Source: Treponema sp. UBA4319 (GTDB taxonomy: Bacteria > Spirochaetota > Spirochaetia > Treponematales > Treponemataceae). Taken from it: a stretch of DNA of 17,068 nucleotides. The stretch's first letter is position 1, and every line of letters begins with the position of its first letter. The notes beneath the pieces are model-generated. The model saw nothing but the letters and a program-made list of their open reading frames with translations. It ran no database searches and was not told where the DNA came from. Position numbers and translations under genes: made by a program. Of the stretch, positions 6,756 through 17,046 are shown in pieces. The stretch covers positions 1-17,068 of the forward strand of contig DGUD01000093.1 in NCBI GenBank assembly GCA_002393865.1, in the 5' to 3' direction.

Positions 6756-8046
6756 GCGTGCTGAGCAGGAGCTTGAGATCCGGCACCTGACGGTTTCGTT
6801 CAGGGCAGGGAAGAACATGGTGCATGCCGTCCGCGACGTGAGCCTGACGGTGGGGCGCGGCGAGACGCTTGCGATTGTGGGCGAGTCCGGTTCCGGCAAA
6901 TCGGTGTCCGCAAAGGCGGTGCTCGGCATAGAGGCGCCGAACGCGGTCATTGAGGGCGGGGAAATCCTCTATGGGGGCGACGACCTGCTGAAGTACAGCG
7001 AGAAGCAGTTTGAGCGCATCCGCGGCAACCGCATATCCATGATTTTTCAGGATCCGATGTCGTCCCTTGACCCCATCATGAAAATCGGCCGCCAGCTGAC
7101 GGAAGCGATGATTCTGAACGGCAGGACTGAACAGCGCCTTGCCCGCAAGGAGGCGAAGCAGCTGCAGGCTGACCTGCTGTCTGCCCTGAAGCAGGCGGGC
7201 ATGGATGGCGCGGAGATACGGGCTGGATTGCGGGCGTATGTGGCCGCGCGCGGCGGTGGGGAGCATGCGGCTGCGGGGCAGGACGCTTTTATTGCGGCCG
7301 TTGCCCGTGCCGGCGCACAGGATACGCTCGGCAGGCTGGAGGCTGCGCTCACTGCGGCCGGAAAGCGCGTGACGGCAAAGGCTGCACGCGAGCGCGCGCT
7401 TGAGCTTTTGCGGGAAGTGGGAATCCGCGACCCGGAGAAGCGCTTTGACCAGTATCCCTTTGAATTCTCCGGCGGTATGCGGCAGCGCATCGTGATAGCG
7501 ATTGCCATTGCCGCGAACCCCGATCTGCTTATCTGCGACGAGCCGACGACCGCGCTTGACGTGACTATCCAGGCGCAGATTCTTGAGCTTATAAACAGGC
7601 TGAAAAAGAGCCGCGGCATGAGCGTCATATTCATCACGCACGATCTGGGCGTTGTGGCGAACGTCGCTGACCGCGTTGCCGTTATGTATGCGGGGAAAGT
7701 CGTTGAGGTGGGTACGGTGCGCGACATTTTTTACCGGCCGGCGCATCCGTATACCTGGGCGCTGCTTGCCTCCATGCCCGACCTTGATACCGGCGAGCGG
7801 CTTGTGTCGATTCCGGGCATTCCCCCTGATATGCGCTACCCGCCGCAGGGAGATGCCTTTGCGCTCCGCAGCGCGTATGCCATGCAGATTGACTTTGAGA
7901 AGGAGCCGCCGCTGTTCCGGATAAGCGAGAGCCACTATGCCGCCACCTGGCTGCTGCATCCTTCCGCGCCGCACGTGGAGCTGCCCAAGGCTGTGACGGA
8001 GCGGATACGGCGTATGCGGGAGCGCGAGGAGGCTGGAAATGAGTGA
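6748..8046 (+). CDS. oppD: Oligopeptide ABC transporter ATPase OppD with insertion and without C-terminal cysteines
   Basis: This 432-residue ATPase energises peptide import from the cytoplasmic face. Walker A is GESGSGKS (45-52), the Q-loop is FQDPMSSLDP with Gln101, the signature is FSGGMRQR (240-247), Walker B is LLICDE (260-265) and the H-loop is His298. The OppD/DppD C-terminal extension begins around HPYT (333-336). Two oddities are visible. About 70 extra residues (roughly 135-205), rich in Ala and charged helix-formers, lie between the Q-loop and the signature. The C-terminal segment that in many homologues reads GCPFxPRCPYAxxxC is GDAFALRSAYAMQID here (368-382), so the cysteines that hold an iron-sulfur cluster in some DppD/OppD proteins are absent. 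All ATPase motifs are intact, so it should be active. Confidence 0.93.
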   Translation: MSERAEQELEIRHLTVSFRAGKNMVHAVRDVSLTVGRGETLAIVGESGSGKSVSAKAVLGIEAPNAVIEGGEILYGGDDLLKYSEKQFERIRGNRISMIFQDPMSSLDPIMKIGRQLTEAMILNGRTEQRLARKEAKQLQADLLSALKQAGMDGAEIRAGLRAYVAARGGGEHAAAGQDAFIAAVARAGAQDTLGRLEAALTAAGKRVTAKAARERALELLREVGIRDPEKRFDQYPFEFSGGMRQRIVIAIAIAANPDLLICDEPTTALDVTIQAQILELINRLKKSRGMSVIFITHDLGVVANVADRVAVMYAGKVVEVGTVRDIFYRPAHPYTWALLASMPDLDTGERLVSIPGIPPDMRYPPQGDAFALRSAYAMQIDFEKEPPLFRISESHYAATWLLHPSAPHVELPKAVTERIRRMREREEAGNE

Positions 8047-10318: not shown

Positions 10319-11548
10319 TTAATAATCCACTGAAAGGGTGAATATGAGACCGAGCAGCGCCGTTACCGAATTTGCCGATGATGTGTATGTCACGGAGTCA
10401 TAGGAATAGGAGCCGCCGTTGTAGAGAACCGGCGCGACAAGCGTCACGGTCAGATATTTGAATGGCGTGTACGAAATGCTCGGTATGACGTAGCCGGACA
10501 TGTTGTCTATGTTCAGGTACCACTGGACGGAAGGAGAGACATCCGAGCGGAACATGTGCGACCATGCCGCGGTAAAGGCGAGCTCCGAGCTTGTCGTTGA
10601 GCCGCCGCCTGTGTGCGAGTCGTAGATAAACTGGTATTCCGCGGCAAAGCCCATCTTGCCGATATCGTCGAGATCCCACAGGCGGCTTATGCCGCCGACG
10701 AATTTTGCGTAGGAGATATCCTCCTGCACCTTGCCGCGCGGGGCGTGCACTTTGCCCCACAGCGTTATATGGTTGCCAAGGAGATCCGTCGTCACGGACA
10801 GGCCGAATGCAGGCTGCATGCGCTGGGTGTCGCGCTTTGCCCACGTCCTGGCGAACAGGCTGACCGCAAAGGGCCCGATGGGGTATTCCACCTCCGCCGC
10901 ATAGGCGATATTCTCTTTGCTGACTTCCGGGATGTCGCTTCCCTTGTACATGGCGAGCGCCTCAATCTGCCCGTAGCCGATGGGAATGGTGATGCTGGTG
11001 TCAAAGCGGCGCGTCGGCGTGAAGGAAAGGTCGAAAATCTTGGGCTCGCTGTAGTCCTCGTCGTCGAGTATGTTCGTGTCAAAAATGCGGGAATTCCCCC
11101 AGCTTTTTGCCGTGGCGCCCACGGAGATATAGACTTTTTCCGCCAGAATGTAATCAAAGTACAGGTGGCTGAGCGATATGTCGAAGTCGGGGAATTCCGT
11201 CCTGACCGCCCCTTGTATGGTGAATTCCGGCGCCGGATGCGCAGTAAAACCGAGCGTGTTGTTGAACGTCATGCCCATGTTTGTGTTTGTGTCCGGACGG
11301 ATTTTTTCGACGAGACCCGCAGCGGCATTGAAATGCCCATAAAACGAGATAACCGGGCTTCCCGTGGAGAAGCTCGGTTCCATGCTCTGCTTGTCCTCTA
11401 CCTGCTCTTCAGATAGCTCGCTGTCCCCTACATCGTTGAAAATATCGTCCACGCTGCTTTCGTAGTCTTCGTAATCCTGAGGAAAGCAGACGGGCGGACA
11501 AAGAAGTATCAGCAATGCCGAGGCAAGCAGGAGACAGCGGATTTTCAT
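10319..11548 (-). CDS. Putative outer-membrane beta-barrel protein
   Basis: This 409-residue protein has a signal peptide (MKIRCLLLASALLILLC, with cleavage near residue 24) and an acidic N-terminal stretch at 25-57 containing DDIFNDVGDS (34-43). The rest alternates polar and hydrophobic residues in many short strands. The last strand, ending LLGLIFTLSVDY, closes with an aromatic residue, as barrel-assembly substrates usually do. I do not recognise a named family. The ATG at 11548 shares one base with the stop of the preceding gene (TGATG), so translation is probably coupled. A GTG one codon earlier is an alternative start. It is the last gene of the permease/LolA-like operon, which suggests it is the outer-membrane part or a client of that system. 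Confidence 0.75.
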   Translation of the reverse strand: MKIRCLLLASALLILLCPPVCFPQDYEDYESSVDDIFNDVGDSELSEEQVEDKQSMEPSFSTGSPVISFYGHFNAAAGLVEKIRPDTNTNMGMTFNNTLGFTAHPAPEFTIQGAVRTEFPDFDISLSHLYFDYILAEKVYISVGATAKSWGNSRIFDTNILDDEDYSEPKIFDLSFTPTRRFDTSITIPIGYGQIEALAMYKGSDIPEVSKENIAYAAEVEYPIGPFAVSLFARTWAKRDTQRMQPAFGLSVTTDLLGNHITLWGKVHAPRGKVQEDISYAKFVGGISRLWDLDDIGKMGFAAEYQFIYDSHTGGGSTTSSELAFTAAWSHMFRSDVSPSVQWYLNIDNMSGYVIPSISYTPFKYLTVTLVAPVLYNGGSYSYDSVTYTSSANSVTALLGLIFTLSVDY

Positions 11549-12363
11549 CACTTGCTCATCATCTCAACGTATTTCTTTGTGTATACGGCATCGCTCTGCT
11601 TTTCGAAGGAATCCTTCGTGAGGGTGATGGTTATCACGGTCTGCTCGTACTGCATCTTGTTGTTGATTTTCTTTCCGCGCAGATTGTCTATAATCGTCAT
11701 TGATTCCGGCACCGAATACTCCTTGTATTTCTGGAGCGACTGGTACTTGGGGATGAGCGTCGTGCGGAGCAGCTGCCCGGAAAGGCTGTAGTCCTCGCGC
11801 TTGCGGATAAGCCCGTCGTCTTCGGTTACCCAGAGCTTTATGGTAGGATAGCTGACATCCTCTACCGCCGCGTTCAGCTCGAAGAGCACGCATGAAAGCT
11901 TGCCGAGCGTTACCCGCGTGGCCTTTGCGATTGTATAGTCCCTGCTGTAATGCTGGGGGGTAAAGTCGCTGTTGTTGGCGTTTGAGCCCTGGAATTTGTC
12001 CTGTGCGCTCGTAAAGACAAACTGCTTGTCGGCCGGGTCGTAGTACCAGATGTTGTTGTCAAACTGGACATAGCCCTTGCCCTTGTCTTTCTTTGCGGGG
12101 CCGGTGATAAGGATGGTGTAGGAAGACGCCCTGTCGCGGCGGTACATGACGGCGTCAAGGACGGATTTTCCCTGACCCGGCTTGTCCTGCACGATAGAGT
12201 ACTTTGCGGAAAAGTCCGTCTTTGTGAATGCGGTAGTCTCGTCTGTCTTCTTCAGAAGCGCGGCTGCATCGGCAGCAGAAAGCTTTGTGTCAGCGAAAGC
12301 CGCGTTTGCTGCAAGAAGCAGCCCCGAAAGTATAGAAACAAATGCGATTCCTGTCTTTTTCAT
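11548..12363 (-). CDS. LolA-like periplasmic outer-membrane lipoprotein-sorting protein
   Basis: This 271-residue exported protein has a signal peptide (MKKTGIAFVSILSGLLLAAN, cleaved after AFA at residue 24). The mature part resembles LolA/LolB-like proteins of the outer-membrane lipoprotein-sorting family. It begins with an Ala-rich helix and a KTDF stretch, then has strands with YVQFDNNIWYYDP, a short basic loop, and LPxL-type segments such as VEDVSYPTIKLWVTEDDGL. Such proteins carry lipids or lipoproteins across the periplasm in a hydrophobic cup. The ATG is preceded by AAGGGAG eight bases upstream. It follows two FtsX-type permeases with a 31-base gap and overlaps the barrel gene by one base. 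Assignment to the fold is moderately sure; the cargo is not known. Confidence 0.78.
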   Translation of the reverse strand: MKKTGIAFVSILSGLLLAANAAFADTKLSAADAAALLKKTDETTAFTKTDFSAKYSIVQDKPGQGKSVLDAVMYRRDRASSYTILITGPAKKDKGKGYVQFDNNIWYYDPADKQFVFTSAQDKFQGSNANNSDFTPQHYSRDYTIAKATRVTLGKLSCVLFELNAAVEDVSYPTIKLWVTEDDGLIRKREDYSLSGQLLRTTLIPKYQSLQKYKEYSVPESMTIIDNLRGKKINNKMQYEQTVITITLTKDSFEKQSDAVYTKKYVEMMSK

Positions 12364-12394
12364 ACGTTCAACTCCCTTAAAATAAGGATAATAA

Positions 12395-13684
12395 TTATGT
12401 TGTCGTGGCGAGTGCTCCCACTGGGCTGATGCTCACGACGTTTCGAATAGTAAACAACATAGAGGAAATGGTCGTTACAGCAATTACAAAAAATAGTAAT
12501 ACTGATTTTACCACGCTGACGGACGGCCTGAGGCGCCCGTTCTCAAGGAAAATGTCCATTGCCGGGATGAATGAGAAGCTGAACTGAGTCAGCACCGCCA
12601 TGACGATGCCGGTCAGCAGCACTCCCGCAAGGAATCCTGCCGTCAGCAGGTAGAAGGATTCCGTAAGGAAGAGGAATTTGACGCTGCCGGGCTTCATGCC
12701 GATTGCCCGGTACGTGCCGATTTCCGTGATGCGCTTCATGATGATGATTTTATAGGTGCTGCCGATGCCCACGGAGATGATGGCCATGAGCACGATGATG
12801 ATGAGCAGCACCACGGCCTTGATGGCGTCTATGAGCAGCTGGAGATCCTGTATGTTCGCGTCGAGGGAGATGAGCGCGTAGCTGATGTCGTCCCGCGGCA
12901 TGTCGTAGTCGATATAATGGTAGAATTCTTTCTTGCAGTCGTAGCGCGGGTACATGGGGAGCACCTTCGCGAGCTGGTTCTGCAGCAGCGCGACGGTATC
13001 CGCGCCGGGCTCCTCTTCGTTGAAGTACATGCAGATTCTGTTCACGTAGTCGTCCGGGCGGGCGGTCACCTTCCTGAGCGCCCGGATATCGATGTACAGC
13101 GTGTACATGCCAAAGAGGCTGTTGTTGTTGAATATGCCGGAGATGACGAGGTTTATCGTGTTCTTGTAGCCCTTGTCGGTGTAGACCTGATAGGTTACGG
13201 TATCGCCCGCACGCACGCCGAGCCGGGCCGCGATTGATTTTGATATGAGGATATTGTTGTGGTCTTCGGATGGCTCCGCGTTTCCTTCCACAAAGTCGAA
13301 GGCAGAGAACAAGTCCCGTTCCGCCTCAAAATCGACGCCTTTTGCCATACGCTGCCGCACGGTCATTCCCTCAAAGAAGATGTATGACTTGCGGGCGTCG
13401 TAGTCTATGCGCGAATAATACGTGACGTCTTCTGGCAGGAATCCTTTGAGCGTCTGGATGAGCGAGTCGGTATCGCCCAAGGAATAGGAGATGTCCCCGC
13501 CCATCAGCGTGATGTCCCCGCCGTAATACTGCTTGGATTTGTTGTGCACCGCCTTGAGCATGCCGTCCGTGACCCAGAGGGCGGAAAGCATGATGGTGAT
13601 GCCTGCGAGGCAGACCGAAAAGAGCGAGACGTACTGGCGCCGGTTGTTTACCAGCGTGTGCAAGGCTATGCGGGAAAAGAACAT
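12395..13684 (-). CDS. ABC transporter permease, FtsX/LolE/MacB type (second permease)
   Basis: This 429-residue membrane protein has the four-helix layout of LolC/LolE and MacB. One helix is near 18-38, followed by a large periplasmic domain to about 285, then three C-terminal helices near 288-308, 335-365 and 391-412. The FtsX core motif RITEIGTYRAIGM (318-330) and the C-terminal NVVSISPVGALA are clear. These permeases extract lipoproteins or other substrates from the inner membrane using the force of a LolD/MacB-like ATPase; they do not form a channel. Its ATG follows directly after the TAA stop of the first permease with no gap. No ATPase gene is present in the window, so the partner must lie elsewhere. 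Confidence 0.85.
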   Translation of the reverse strand: MFFSRIALHTLVNNRRQYVSLFSVCLAGITIMLSALWVTDGMLKAVHNKSKQYYGGDITLMGGDISYSLGDTDSLIQTLKGFLPEDVTYYSRIDYDARKSYIFFEGMTVRQRMAKGVDFEAERDLFSAFDFVEGNAEPSEDHNNILISKSIAARLGVRAGDTVTYQVYTDKGYKNTINLVISGIFNNNSLFGMYTLYIDIRALRKVTARPDDYVNRICMYFNEEEPGADTVALLQNQLAKVLPMYPRYDCKKEFYHYIDYDMPRDDISYALISLDANIQDLQLLIDAIKAVVLLIIIVLMAIISVGIGSTYKIIIMKRITEIGTYRAIGMKPGSVKFLFLTESFYLLTAGFLAGVLLTGIVMAVLTQFSFSFIPAMDIFLENGRLRPSVSVVKSVLLFFVIAVTTISSMLFTIRNVVSISPVGALATTT

Positions 13685-15142
13685 TTATACCTGCCCCCTC
13701 ATTGCTACAATCGGATTACTTTCCATGGCGACATGTACCGGGTATATCCAGCCGAGGAAGGCGAGTACGACGGAAATCCCCATGCAGCGCAGGATATTCC
13801 GTGCGGTAAGCACCGCGTTTATGCTGTTGCCGCCGAAAAGCTGTACCAGCAGCGAGTTGTTGAGCTGGATGCCCGCCCTGTTTATCAGCGTGCTTATGGC
13901 GCAGCCTATGAGGCAGCCCAGCGCCCCCGCGCTGATGGTGAGCAGGGAGGTCTCGCTCAGGAACTGGAGGGCGATGAAACGCTGCGTCGCGCCGATAGCC
14001 CTCAGTGTGCCGGTCTCGCAGACCCTGCCCAGCGCGGAAATGGTCAGCGTGTTGTTTATGACGATAAAGCCCGTCAGCAGGATGAGTATGATGCCGACCG
14101 TCATGATGATGCGCAGGTAAAAGACGTAGACCACGGAGCCTCCGGCAGCCGTGCGCCAGTTGATTGCCTGTACCGGCCAGTCCCTTTTCTTGAATTCGGC
14201 GTTGAGCGCCTTTATCATTTTTTTTGCGGAGAGCCTTTTGTCCGTGCGGCAGATAAGGTACGACCACGTGTTGTTCTGCGCCGCATCGAGCTCCTGCCCG
14301 TCATCGTCCTGCTGCAGGAGCGCCGGGATATCCAGCTCCTCGCCTTCCGTCACGACGGAATCCTCCGCGTCTGCGAAGATGTCATCGAAGTTGCCCTCGT
14401 TGCTGCGTTCCAGCAGGTTTTTTACCTCTTCGTCAAGCTCTATGTCGTCAGTGGTGTCCTGCACGCCCATGAGCCCGCGGAGCGTCTCCGGGTCGATGAG
14501 CGCAATCTTGTCAAGTGTATAGTTCCTGACTTCGTAGCGGTAGATGCCGGTAATCGGAATCGCCCTGATGGTAAAGGATGCGCCGTCCGTCATGACGAGC
14601 TTTACCGTATCGCCCACGTGCAGCTCGGTCTCGGCATCCTCTTCGATGAGCGCGAGCGAGGTCTCGCTCAGCATCAGCCCGCGCTCCCCGGCCGTATAGG
14701 GTCTGCCGGAGACCATCTGGATTCCGCTCATGTCCGCCATGTATTCGTCCCCGATGACCCCGAAAAGCGAGAGCGGTATGTTCTCTTCATTTATATCCAT
14801 CACCGCCACGCCGGTAATCTGCGGGATGACCGATGTGATGCCCTCCGTACCCCTGACGAGCTCGTTGACCTCGGCGAAGGGGATGAGCAGGGGGATTTCG
14901 GAAAGCTCGCCGGTTACCGGGGTCTCATCCCCGAAAAGGCTGAGGGGGAATTCCGATTTCGGGCAGACGACGATGTTGCCGGTAAAGCTGTTCACGTATG
15001 TGTGCTCCATGCCGCTGTCCGTGCCGTCAAAGATGGCATTTGAGACAACAAGCAGCGCGAGCGTGAACGCTATGAACAATATGATGACTGCGGAGCTCCT
15101 GCGGGAAAGCACGTTCCGCAACGCAAAACGAAATGCAAACAT
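13685..15142 (-). CDS. ABC transporter permease, FtsX/LolC type with an acidic periplasmic loop (first permease)
   Basis: This is a 485-residue permease if it starts at the ATG giving MFAFRFALRNVLSRRSS, a usual opening for this family. An ATG six codons upstream (15160) is also possible, and further extension runs into the palindrome. It has one helix near 17-38, a long periplasmic domain, then helices near 338-365, 391-422 and 452-472. The FtsX motif is GRVCETGTLRAIGA (372-385), and the end is ESNPIVAMRG. The periplasmic domain includes an unusually acidic, probably disordered stretch at about 228-292 containing DDIFADAEDS (253-262). That stretch resembles the N-terminus of the barrel protein in the same operon. 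No good ribosome binding site was seen. It is the first gene of the minus-strand operon and is divergent from the lipoprotein gene. Confidence 0.83.
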   Translation of the reverse strand: MFAFRFALRNVLSRRSSAVIILFIAFTLALLVVSNAIFDGTDSGMEHTYVNSFTGNIVVCPKSEFPLSLFGDETPVTGELSEIPLLIPFAEVNELVRGTEGITSVIPQITGVAVMDINEENIPLSLFGVIGDEYMADMSGIQMVSGRPYTAGERGLMLSETSLALIEEDAETELHVGDTVKLVMTDGASFTIRAIPITGIYRYEVRNYTLDKIALIDPETLRGLMGVQDTTDDIELDEEVKNLLERSNEGNFDDIFADAEDSVVTEGEELDIPALLQQDDDGQELDAAQNNTWSYLICRTDKRLSAKKMIKALNAEFKKRDWPVQAINWRTAAGGSVVYVFYLRIIMTVGIILILLTGFIVINNTLTISALGRVCETGTLRAIGATQRFIALQFLSETSLLTISAGALGCLIGCAISTLINRAGIQLNNSLLVQLFGGNSINAVLTARNILRCMGISVVLAFLGWIYPVHVAMESNPIVAMRGQV

Positions 15143-15150
15143 GTACCGCC

Positions 15151-15179
15151 ATACTATCATAGTAAGGGCAAAAACGCAA
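15151..15179 (-). promoter_or_regulatory. Possible promoter of the permease operon
   Basis: On the minus strand, TTGCGT (15174-15179) and TAGTAT (15151-15156) are 17 bases apart. The start site would fall near 15144, only about two bases before the ATG at 15142. If correct, this is a second nearly leaderless gene in the window. The boxes are imperfect, and the call rests on spacing alone. Confidence 0.3.
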
Positions 15180-15191
15180 GTTGAGCAGGAG

Positions 15192-15300
15192 GCCGGAAAA
15201 ATGCGCGGAGGCGGGGTTCCAAGAGCCACCGCCATTTGCAACGCGAAGCTTGCAACAGGCGGAGGCTCTTGGGTTCCCGCCGGGAGCGCATTTTTCCGGC
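15192..15300. repeat. 109-bp imperfect palindrome (MITE-like or REP-like element)
   Basis: The left arm, 15192-15233, and right arm, 15258-15300, are reverse complements. The outer 15 bases, starting GCCGGAAAAATGCGC, match perfectly. The inner 13 (AAGAGCC then CCGCC) match at 12 positions, and the middle is a diverged GGCGGG-rich part. At the centre, TTGCAA (15236-15241) and TTGCAA (15250-15255) form a further small hairpin around an 8-base loop. The whole could fold into a long hairpin or cruciform. It contains no gene and lies between two divergent genes. The 15-bp outer arms could be terminal repeats of a non-autonomous element. Confidence 0.8.
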
Positions 15301-15406: not shown

Positions 15407-15414
15407 CCCCCCCC
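15407..15414 (+). repeat. C8 tract just upstream of the lipoprotein promoter
   Basis: Eight consecutive C lie nine bases before the putative -35 box at 15424. Homopolymer G/C tracts at such positions change promoter strength in some spirochaete surface-protein genes. Together with GTA before it, this forms GTACCCCCCCC, the inverse of the G-tract context at 15698-15708. Confidence 0.85.
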
Positions 15415-15423
15415 TTCCGGGTG

Positions 15424-15453
15424 ATGACAAGGGGCTTGCCGACGTGGTATCAT
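15424..15453 (+). promoter_or_regulatory. Putative promoter of the lipoprotein gene
   Basis: ATGACA (15424-15429) and TATCAT (15448-15453) are 18 bases apart, each differing at one base from the consensus. The start site would be near 15460, about 45 bases before the ATG at 15505. The preceding region, with the palindrome and C8, is gene-free, so the whole 15143-15504 gap is regulatory or repeat DNA. Confidence 0.45.
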
Positions 15454-15504
15454 ATACCCATGCGTGGGGTGCCCAAGGCTCATTCATATAGTAAGGAATT
15501 GTTT

Positions 15505-17046
15505 ATGGCGGCATGTTTCGCTGGAAGTCTCGGTCTGTTCGGAAAACAGAAGTTCGCGGGCAAGGCTCCGCTTTCCCGCAACCCGGCGTTGGGGGCTTTC
15601 TTCTGCGGGTGCATCCTGCTTGCTTCCTGCGCAAACGAAGTGAACCTCCGTGGGGGCGCAGTCGGTTCCGGGAATGATACTATACAAGAGTATGGTGGGG
15701 GGGGGTACGGGCGCGCCCATAACTTCCAGTCCAGTACGCCGGACATCGTGCTGGGGGACGACGGCTTTTCTGTCATAAGCGTGAAGGAGCACATAAGCTA
15801 CACGGAAGTGGTGTCCGCCAGCACGGAAGACGAGGGAAAGACCGGCTACCTGAAGATACTGCCGCTGCCGTCGGTCTTGTTCAACCAGACGCAGGACGGT
15901 ACGCCCGTCACGTGGACGGGCTACACGGTGAGCGTCACCGTGAACGGCCGGAGCATGCCCGCCGTCACGTTCCAGCAAGGCGACACGGAGGCCGTCGTCA
16001 TAGAATTCATCCCAATCGGCTCCACCATATCCGGGACGGCAGTAATCCAAGTGCAGGGTGCCGGTGGGCAGGACATCGGCTACACGCAGCTGACGGCGGA
16101 GTCCGCGCCGGCGACAACAGGGGAGGGCGACAACTCCATCCTCATGTATATCCAGGACTACCCCGTGGAATTCAGCATGGATGGGCACGAAGGCGCTGCC
16201 CCTGCGGCTGCGGAGTATGCAAAAAGCGGTACGAACGGGGTGCTTGAGCCGCCCACGGACTGCCTGTACATGGATGAGTCCGGCGCAATGGTCTTCTGCG
16301 GCTGGTCGCTGTCGGCTGGCGGGGCGGCGGAATTCCCTGCCGGGACTGCAATTCCTTCAGCTTCTGCCTACAAGGGAAGGCTGGTGCTGCACCCGGCGTA
16401 CCGCAGGGTGGCGGAGTTCACGGCGGTGTACGACAGCGGCACCTACCGCTACAGCGCCATGACGTACAGGGATGCCGGCATGCCGGTGACGGTTCTGGCG
16501 GGAGGGCTTTCCGTAACAGTGGAAGGTTCTTCCGCAGCATCGGTGCAGGTGCCGGTGGGCAGCAGCCGCAGCATCTCCGTTTCCGGGGCGGGCATTGCGG
16601 CTTCCTCGGAAACCTTCACGGTGGCGATAAAGCCGGTGCATGCGCAGATGCAGGAGCTGTGGCACTGCATGCACCGCGGCGAGACTGACAACGACATGGG
16701 CTTGGTCAGCACCTACACGTTTGGGGGCACCCAGGTCTTCCACAGCAGCGGGGGATGGGTCAGCAGCGACAATTCGTGGACAGACCTTACCAGCGGGCTG
16801 AACAAGATAATCAAAACGTACTCGAACCTGGGGGATTCGATTGCGTGTGCGGCGAACGGATTGGAGGAATGGGACGGCAGTTCCGAGAACGACGGCTTGG
16901 GCTCAGGCAGCGCCTCCATCACGCTCCTGGACGCCATCAATCAGGTTGACGGCAGCTCCAGCACCAATTGCGGCGTAGGGGTGAGGACGTATGGCAGCAA
17001 GGGCAACACGGAGAACTCCTTCTATTTCAAGCTGTACGAGGACTGA
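15505..17046 (+). CDS. Putative surface lipoprotein with a G9 tract, possibly phase variable
   Basis: This is a 513-residue secreted lipoprotein of unknown function. The N-terminus is long and basic. A hydrophobic stretch then leads to the lipobox LASC with Cys42, so the mature protein is anchored by lipid. The chain after that is Gly/Ser/Thr-rich and predicted to be mostly strand. It includes a segment ending FCGWSLSAGG (264-273) that resembles a degenerate InlB/Listeria-Bacteroides-type repeat, which is seen in treponemal surface lipoproteins. The C-terminal part (about 385-513) has the motifs GGTQVFH and LTSGLNKIIKTYS. Start choice: ATG at 15505 with AAGGA eight bases upstream. Longer in-frame readings to 15181 would cross the promoter and palindrome and lose the signal peptide. 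Nine G at 15697-15705 encode three of the four glycines at 64-67. The gene ends 22 bases before the window edge. Confidence 0.75.
   Translation: MAACFAGSLGLFGKQKFAGKAPLSRNPALGAFFCGCILLASCANEVNLRGGAVGSGNDTIQEYGGGGYGRAHNFQSSTPDIVLGDDGFSVISVKEHISYTEVVSASTEDEGKTGYLKILPLPSVLFNQTQDGTPVTWTGYTVSVTVNGRSMPAVTFQQGDTEAVVIEFIPIGSTISGTAVIQVQGAGGQDIGYTQLTAESAPATTGEGDNSILMYIQDYPVEFSMDGHEGAAPAAAEYAKSGTNGVLEPPTDCLYMDESGAMVFCGWSLSAGGAAEFPAGTAIPSASAYKGRLVLHPAYRRVAEFTAVYDSGTYRYSAMTYRDAGMPVTVLAGGLSVTVEGSSAASVQVPVGSSRSISVSGAGIAASSETFTVAIKPVHAQMQELWHCMHRGETDNDMGLVSTYTFGGTQVFHSSGGWVSSDNSWTDLTSGLNKIIKTYSNLGDSIACAANGLEEWDGSSENDGLGSGSASITLLDAINQVDGSSSTNCGVGVRTYGSKGNTENSFYFKLYED
15697..15705 (+). repeat. G9 homopolymer in the lipoprotein coding sequence
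   Basis: Nine consecutive G form three glycine codons (residues 65-67), shortly after the lipidated cysteine. With ten G the frame meets TAA after five further non-glycine codons. With eight G it meets TAA about 24 codons on. Either change would cut the protein to a short lipidated stub, so tract length decides whether full-length protein is made. Confidence 0.92.

Follow-up and report, generated by a model that had tools for sequence, protein, structure and literature searches.

A poly-G tract inside a modular lipoprotein gene family of treponeme-like spirochaetes, a candidate translational phase switch

The lipoprotein gene and its poly-G tract

The window, by which we mean the whole 17,068-nucleotide stretch of DNA analysed here, is the entire contig C148 of genome G000, a draft assembly in 225 contigs that is 84% complete. 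Near its right end is a rightwards-transcribed lipoprotein gene whose open reading frame runs from an ATG at 15505 to a stop codon ending at 17046. The features of this region are as follows, in window coordinates.

15407–15414, + strand: run of eight C (G8 on the - strand), 5' of the promoter-like site; a second homopolymer
15424–15453, + strand: sigma-70-like promoter match, ATGACA-18-TATCAT, with TG preceding the second hexamer; a consensus match only
15493–15498, + strand: Shine-Dalgarno-like AAGGAA, 6 nt 5' of the ATG
15505–17046, + strand: lipoprotein gene encoding 513 aa, then a stop; in frame as assembled here; homologues found
15505–15630, + strand: signal peptide with lipobox LLASC, the Cys42 codon at 15628–15630; read from the translation
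15631–15732, + strand: linker, residues 43–76, containing the tract; low model confidence
15697–15705, + strand: G9 tract, codons 65–67 of 513; proposed slippage switch
15720–15722, + strand: TAA ending one alternative frame 3' of the tract
15776–15778, + strand: TAA ending the other alternative frame; the relative P0026 terminates with identical residues
15733–16419, + strand: shared all-beta region, residues 77–305, FN3/Ig-like at about 112–208 and InlB-repeat-like at about 216–302; weak matches
16420–17043, + strand: C-terminal region, residues 306–513; no Pfam match, low model confidence

The G9 tract starts 192 nt inside the ORF and not in the promoter, unlike Tpr-type control. The first-pass annotation had described nine Gs in frame just after the lipidated cysteine of a lipoprotein; the in-frame position is confirmed, and the signal peptide and lipobox (residues 38–42) bear out the lipoprotein assignment. 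The tract does lie downstream of Cys42, but 22 codons intervene, and 'just after' was too close. The accompanying claim that both frame changes produce early stops also holds, with the alternative frames open after the tract for 7 codons (to the TAA at 15720–15722) and 26 codons (to the TAA at 15776–15778).

Upstream, the promoter-like site agrees with the consensus at 10 of 12 positions (mean 0.4 in shuffles). The C8 run 5' of it could be a second, transcriptional, tract; it is altered in the related assembly that carries P0026, as read from the upstream sequence. No such run of seven or more is present just upstream of the family copies on contigs C116 or C122, and a role of C8 as a conserved promoter switch was dropped for this reason. 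The neighbouring genes, divergent from the lipoprotein gene (11551–15241, - strand), encode a LolA-like protein and two FtsX/MacB-type permeases. The interval that separates the lipoprotein gene from the permease gene contains a long imperfect inverted repeat (15190–15300, found by eye), within which lies a terminator-like hairpin (15265–15287) of a kind that shuffles also give (mean 0.8).

The segment following the lipobox cysteine is conserved in relatives, the linker is rich in Gly and Ser, and the C-termini vary among family members, some of which bear BspA/DUF285, Lcl_C or Ig-like modules. BspA/DUF285 repeats (PF03382 or PF13306) are present in five of eight scanned relatives (P0003, P0004, P0005, P0014 and the C122 body). 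A Pfam scan of the window protein returns no family at E<=1 and neither of these repeats, and it is hence without the BspA/DUF285 module; Foldseek gives no match in the PDB at E<=0.001, and weak resemblances to adhesion or fimbrial proteins of Bacteroides were not used. A tblastn search of 50,697 phage records gave no match, and a phage origin was discarded.

A protein search with the window protein, in which 7993 candidates were scored, found only its own cluster (9 member sequences) among the matches listed, and a scan of named genomes found three loci, all in RUG14872. Of 200 genomes in the genus, 10 have a match to the alignment, a strong one in G000 and G109 only; in the taxonomic family the figure is 13 of 274, the three more being from one other genus. 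Two of that rank (G266 and G269, in another genus) have no G run of seven or more at their loci L087, L088 and L090, and are tract-free yet too distant to be counted; weak or partial matches in G099, G013, G022, G039, G060, G075, G112, G134, G176 and G270 were also left out of the counts. A survey of the literature on phase variation in treponemes, rumen Treponema and BspA proteins, by titles and the opening of abstracts and with subscription journals mostly outside it, did not find this lipoprotein family. The family thus appears to be modular, multi-copy and previously undescribed, while the kind of switch proposed below is itself known.

Copies of the family and their reading frames

Besides the window gene, G000 has three further copies with an N-terminus, C116a, C116b and C122, with tracts of G9, G8 and G11, respectively, in the same linker (the C2 match lacks an N-terminus and is excluded). 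C116a is in frame across 204 codons up to the contig end. In C116b and C122 the leader and body are in different frames with the junction at the tract, and the body frames stay free of stops over 519 and 1212 codons, respectively; two of the four N-terminus-bearing copies, including the window gene, are therefore in frame and two are out. We note that C116b and C116a (L006) are near-identical tandem copies on the same strand with unlike tract lengths.

The second genome, G109, is RUG14872, an 'uncultured Spirochaetaceae bacterium' of the same genus as G000 but a second species; we take the RUG genomes to originate from the rumen. It has nine places with an N-terminus. Three have readable tracts (C145, G9; C255, G7; C261, G8) and all of these are out of frame, four are tract-free (C26, C158, C318 and C245) and unbroken to the contig limits in every case, and the contigs of the other two (C98 and C3) break off within the tract or shortly before it. 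Taking both genomes together there are seven readable tract-bearing copies (G7–G11), two in frame and five out. The difference between tract-bearing copies (5/7 out of frame) and tract-free copies (4/4 unbroken) has a one-sided Fisher P of 0.045, and it is more telling that all five frame breaks coincide with the tract. The phase variation that the first-pass annotation proposed from one tract thus gains support from a site that is G7–G11 in seven copies of two species, with differing frames.

In all seven readable tract-bearing copies exactly one frame leads on into the body, and the remaining two meet a stop within 2–51 codons. This bears on the idea that transcriptional slippage or programmed frameshifting yields some full-length protein at every length, such that the tract tunes expression and does not switch it. 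Homopolymers are slippery for both polymerases and ribosomes, which favours such an explanation, but the early closure of the alternative frames in 7/7 copies argues indirectly against it, and we regard it as unlikely.

The length of the tract is unremarkable. Shuffles of the window reach a count of G8 words at least as high as the observed 3 in 23 of 200 cases, and there are 23 runs of nine or more G in 2.76 Mb genome-wide where a first-order model predicts 22.8, the model itself being trained on 79 kb that were partly selected for containing tracts; exact G8 runs number 25 in G000. Tract length alone was accordingly rejected as evidence. The position of the tract, however, is not chance. All four N-terminus-bearing copies in G000 have at least eight Gs in the same linker against a rough expectation of 0.004, which is not a clean P value, since the copies share ancestry and Gly is abundant in the linker. 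These genome-wide counts and the Gly/Ser-rich linker are what one would expect of a chance G run with no regulatory role, but the site is common to the four G000 copies and three readable G109 copies while lengths and frames vary. Moreover, L087, from the other genus, has nine Gly after the cysteine in mixed codons with no G run of six or more there, and poly-Gly therefore does not require poly-G. A chance run is accordingly the explanation to which we give the least credence, and we consider it extremely improbable.

Public proteins reveal further frame states. A search with one tract-free relative found at least 16 proteins; among the matches listed, six begin with the leader (P0002, P0003, P0004, P0015, P0016 and P0017), six start just before the tract site and have no signal peptide (P0005–P0009 and P0014), and four start further inside (P0010–P0013), where starts without a leader may also come from partial contigs. 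With the natural truncated leaders (A3) as query at least 21 short proteins were found (P0018–P0038), a count that is no proof alone since the length limit of the search favours short proteins.

Individual comparisons are more informative, for they show the same gene, or almost the same, with differing frame states across assemblies (assemblies, not reads). The leader of P0026 agrees with that of the window gene in all but 2 of 64 residues, and its last 26 residues are read in the window's other frame; as a near version of the window gene truncated in another frame, P0026 also supports the phase variation proposed at first. P0004 is a continuous, lipobox-bearing form of the G109 C145 gene, identical at 77/77 and 744/746 positions to the halves of C145, which are in different frames, and P0023 and P0024 have their first 79 residues in common and then follow different frames. 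C116a, C116b and their relative P0018 (75/86 identities) display three frames, as copies or relatives and not as proven alleles of one locus. Frames therefore differ not only between the window gene and P0026 but also within C145/P0004, P0023/P0024, and C116a/C116b with P0018. P0020 corresponds to the C122 gene but is one codon shorter at the tract, a difference in length within one frame class. Other proteins repeat a state already seen: P0022 shares the C255 frame and P0019 the C261 frame (two genes, in two assemblies each), and P0021 has the off frame of C145 (152/159). In P0026 and P0021 letters beside the tract differ too, and the tract alone does not account for the change in length.

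Selection, decay and assembly error

Pairwise Nei-Gojobori comparisons of six pairs gave dN/dS values of 0.30–0.48 in five and 0.66 in the sixth, bearing in mind that these values take in the time preceding loss of frame. The five are C145 versus C255 (0.30 over 137 codons), C122 versus the tract-free G109 C158 (0.36 over 1078 codons), C116b versus C145 (0.38 over 495 codons), C116b versus C116a (0.40 over 128 codons, with only 15 differences) and C145 versus C26 (0.48 over 653 codons); the sixth is C116b versus the window gene (0.66 over 426 codons). Purifying selection is indicated by these ratios, and it may be older than the frame break.

It could be argued that the out-of-frame copies are pseudogenes, or a silent reservoir of donor cassettes for recombination, with the tract merely the site at which they broke. 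The C255 copy has two more TAG stops downstream and on that account may be decaying, and the near-identical tandem genes C116a and C116b could exchange sequence. Against this, three out-of-frame copies have bodies open for 519, 746 and 1212 codons, dN/dS is 0.30–0.48 in 5/6 pairs, and P0004 provides a continuous version of one such gene in another assembly. We therefore think decay or a silent reservoir very improbable as a general account of the out-of-frame copies.

A different concern is that homopolymer lengths in the drafts are wrong and all of the genes are intact. Both of the compared genomes are drafts, the G109 contigs C98 and C3 end in or just before the tract, and an N gap in G000 C30 is flanked by two G10 tracts. 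As a control we read every exact G8 run lying elsewhere than in the family or the window (23 runs) and scanned eight ORFs at such runs against Pfam. Five Pfam-recognised G000 ORFs (MutS, SRP54-type GTPase, Abhydrolase_3, YfhO and Acyl_transf_3) contain G8 in frame, and because these recognised genes stay in frame, assembly error is not general in this assembly, yet it is possible at any single tract. A case in point is L098 (G000 C6:1200–3700), an ABC exporter ORF outside the family that is cut at a G8 (1254–1261), its ATPase domain match ending at profile position 41 of 137 with the G8 shortly after; this break is either another switch or an assembly error. Truncated family proteins are encoded on long contigs too (P0021, 90 kb; P0036, 116 kb; P0032, 120 kb), and the breaks are located at the tract, with none in the four tract-free copies. 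Erroneous lengths throughout are in our view quite improbable.

Two other G8-bearing ORFs in the control are a GT6 gene with the run near its end (L099) and one without a Pfam family (L110). The in-frame G8 in mutS of G000 (L118, C217) is at 1261–1268. A switch borne by mutS was considered and dropped, as a run of seven or more is present in 1 of 30 mutS loci, G000 itself; mutS is present in 59/59 genomes.

The proposed switch and related systems

We propose that the G9 tract is most probably a site of ORF-internal translational phase variation, through changes in poly-G length in the linker of a modular lipoprotein. Slipped-strand mispairing during replication would add Gs to the tract or remove them. 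One length class would link the lipoprotein leader to the folded body (ON), and the other two would stop translation 2–51 codons on (OFF), leaving a short lipidated stub. The plan of the family is a common leader, a tract-bearing linker, a shared beta-rich region and variable C-terminal parts, and the tract-bearing copies could each switch independently, giving a mixture of lipoproteins across a population. We infer slippage as the cause from the differing tract lengths and frames, and switching is presumably reversible within one strain; a surface location of the lipoprotein is likewise presumed, and an adhesin-like role is suggested. The family is easily mis-annotated, because predicted-protein sets hold OFF alleles as short or signal-peptide-less proteins.

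The closest likeness is to T. pallidum, where spirochaete envelope genes also have G tracts of varying length. The portions of one study to which we refer report that 76% of 17 poly-G targets (>=8) are clearly length-variable and 4 little or not, and that the tracts of TprE/G/J, TprL and Tp0126 act in promoters on transcription; its primer table also makes provision for ORF-internal tracts (PMC7864442). The comparison with Tpr proteins drawn in the first-pass annotation is consequently apt in part: treponemal poly-G lengths do vary in that account, but the Tpr and Tp0126 tracts it describes are in promoters and affect transcription, whereas the window tract is inside the ORF and would affect translation. 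Comparison of the window protein with the Tpr family itself was through Pfam alone, with no family at E<=1.

Several other systems share elements of the proposed switch. In Candidatus Mycoplasma girerdii, BspA-like genes are described as phase-variable on the strength of metagenome reads, the length variants comprising truncated and intact forms (PMC5476646, in part); the repeat given there is the dinucleotide CA, in contrast to poly-G in the spirochaete family, and the window protein is without the LRR module. A sortase-pilus of the gut commensal Bifidobacterium breve has an intragenic G tract switched ON and OFF by replication slippage, according to the sections of PMC9187656 used here; the proteins are different ones, and lengths were measured by deep sequencing, whereas ours are known from assemblies alone. 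Coding homopolymers are put forward as a general regulatory device in the available text of PMC2831843.

Surface genes of Campylobacter and Neisseria are switched on and off by G/C tracts, and these poly-G contingency genes belong to other lineages and other protein families. If the proposed switch is correct, gut or rumen spirochaetes, with this multi-copy lipoprotein family, become a further case of ORF-internal poly-G phase variation; the role of a varying surface there may lie in attachment niches or in escape from phages and protozoa, not in disease. Conceivably, though we would not yet call it probable, treponeme-like spirochaetes including a rumen species use a common leader and poly-G linker as a switch unit before varied C-terminal modules (LRR/DUF285, InlB-like, Lcl_C or Ig-like), with the copies flipping independently to give a combinatorial surface coat in organisms that are not known as pathogens, possibly beside tract-bearing glycosylation genes of the same genome. 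Bovine treponeme genomes are described as having homopolymer-linked pseudogenes, and the rumen commensal T. ruminis as having few G/C tracts of seven or more (9 G and 6 C), in the passages of PMC8049484 that concern them; tract-rich genomes are therefore, on that source's figures, not general among rumen treponemes.

Other tracts were observed in these genomes. L093 (G000 C30, 1427–4952) has four G9–G10 tracts in 3.5 kb, two of them flanking the N gap and the other two close to the 3' termini of a radical SAM and an MptE-like ORF; it adjoins glycosyltransferase and capsule-type genes, and these are possibly further phase-variable glycan genes. L120 (G000 C162:5500–12500) has a G11 at 7463 in a glyoxalase-like ORF and a G9 at 10921 near the end of a glycosyltransferase ORF, with FkbH-like and GT2 genes adjoining. 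In another species of the genus, L064 (G075 C3) has a G9 at 334–342, shortly 5' of a different lipoprotein-like gene.
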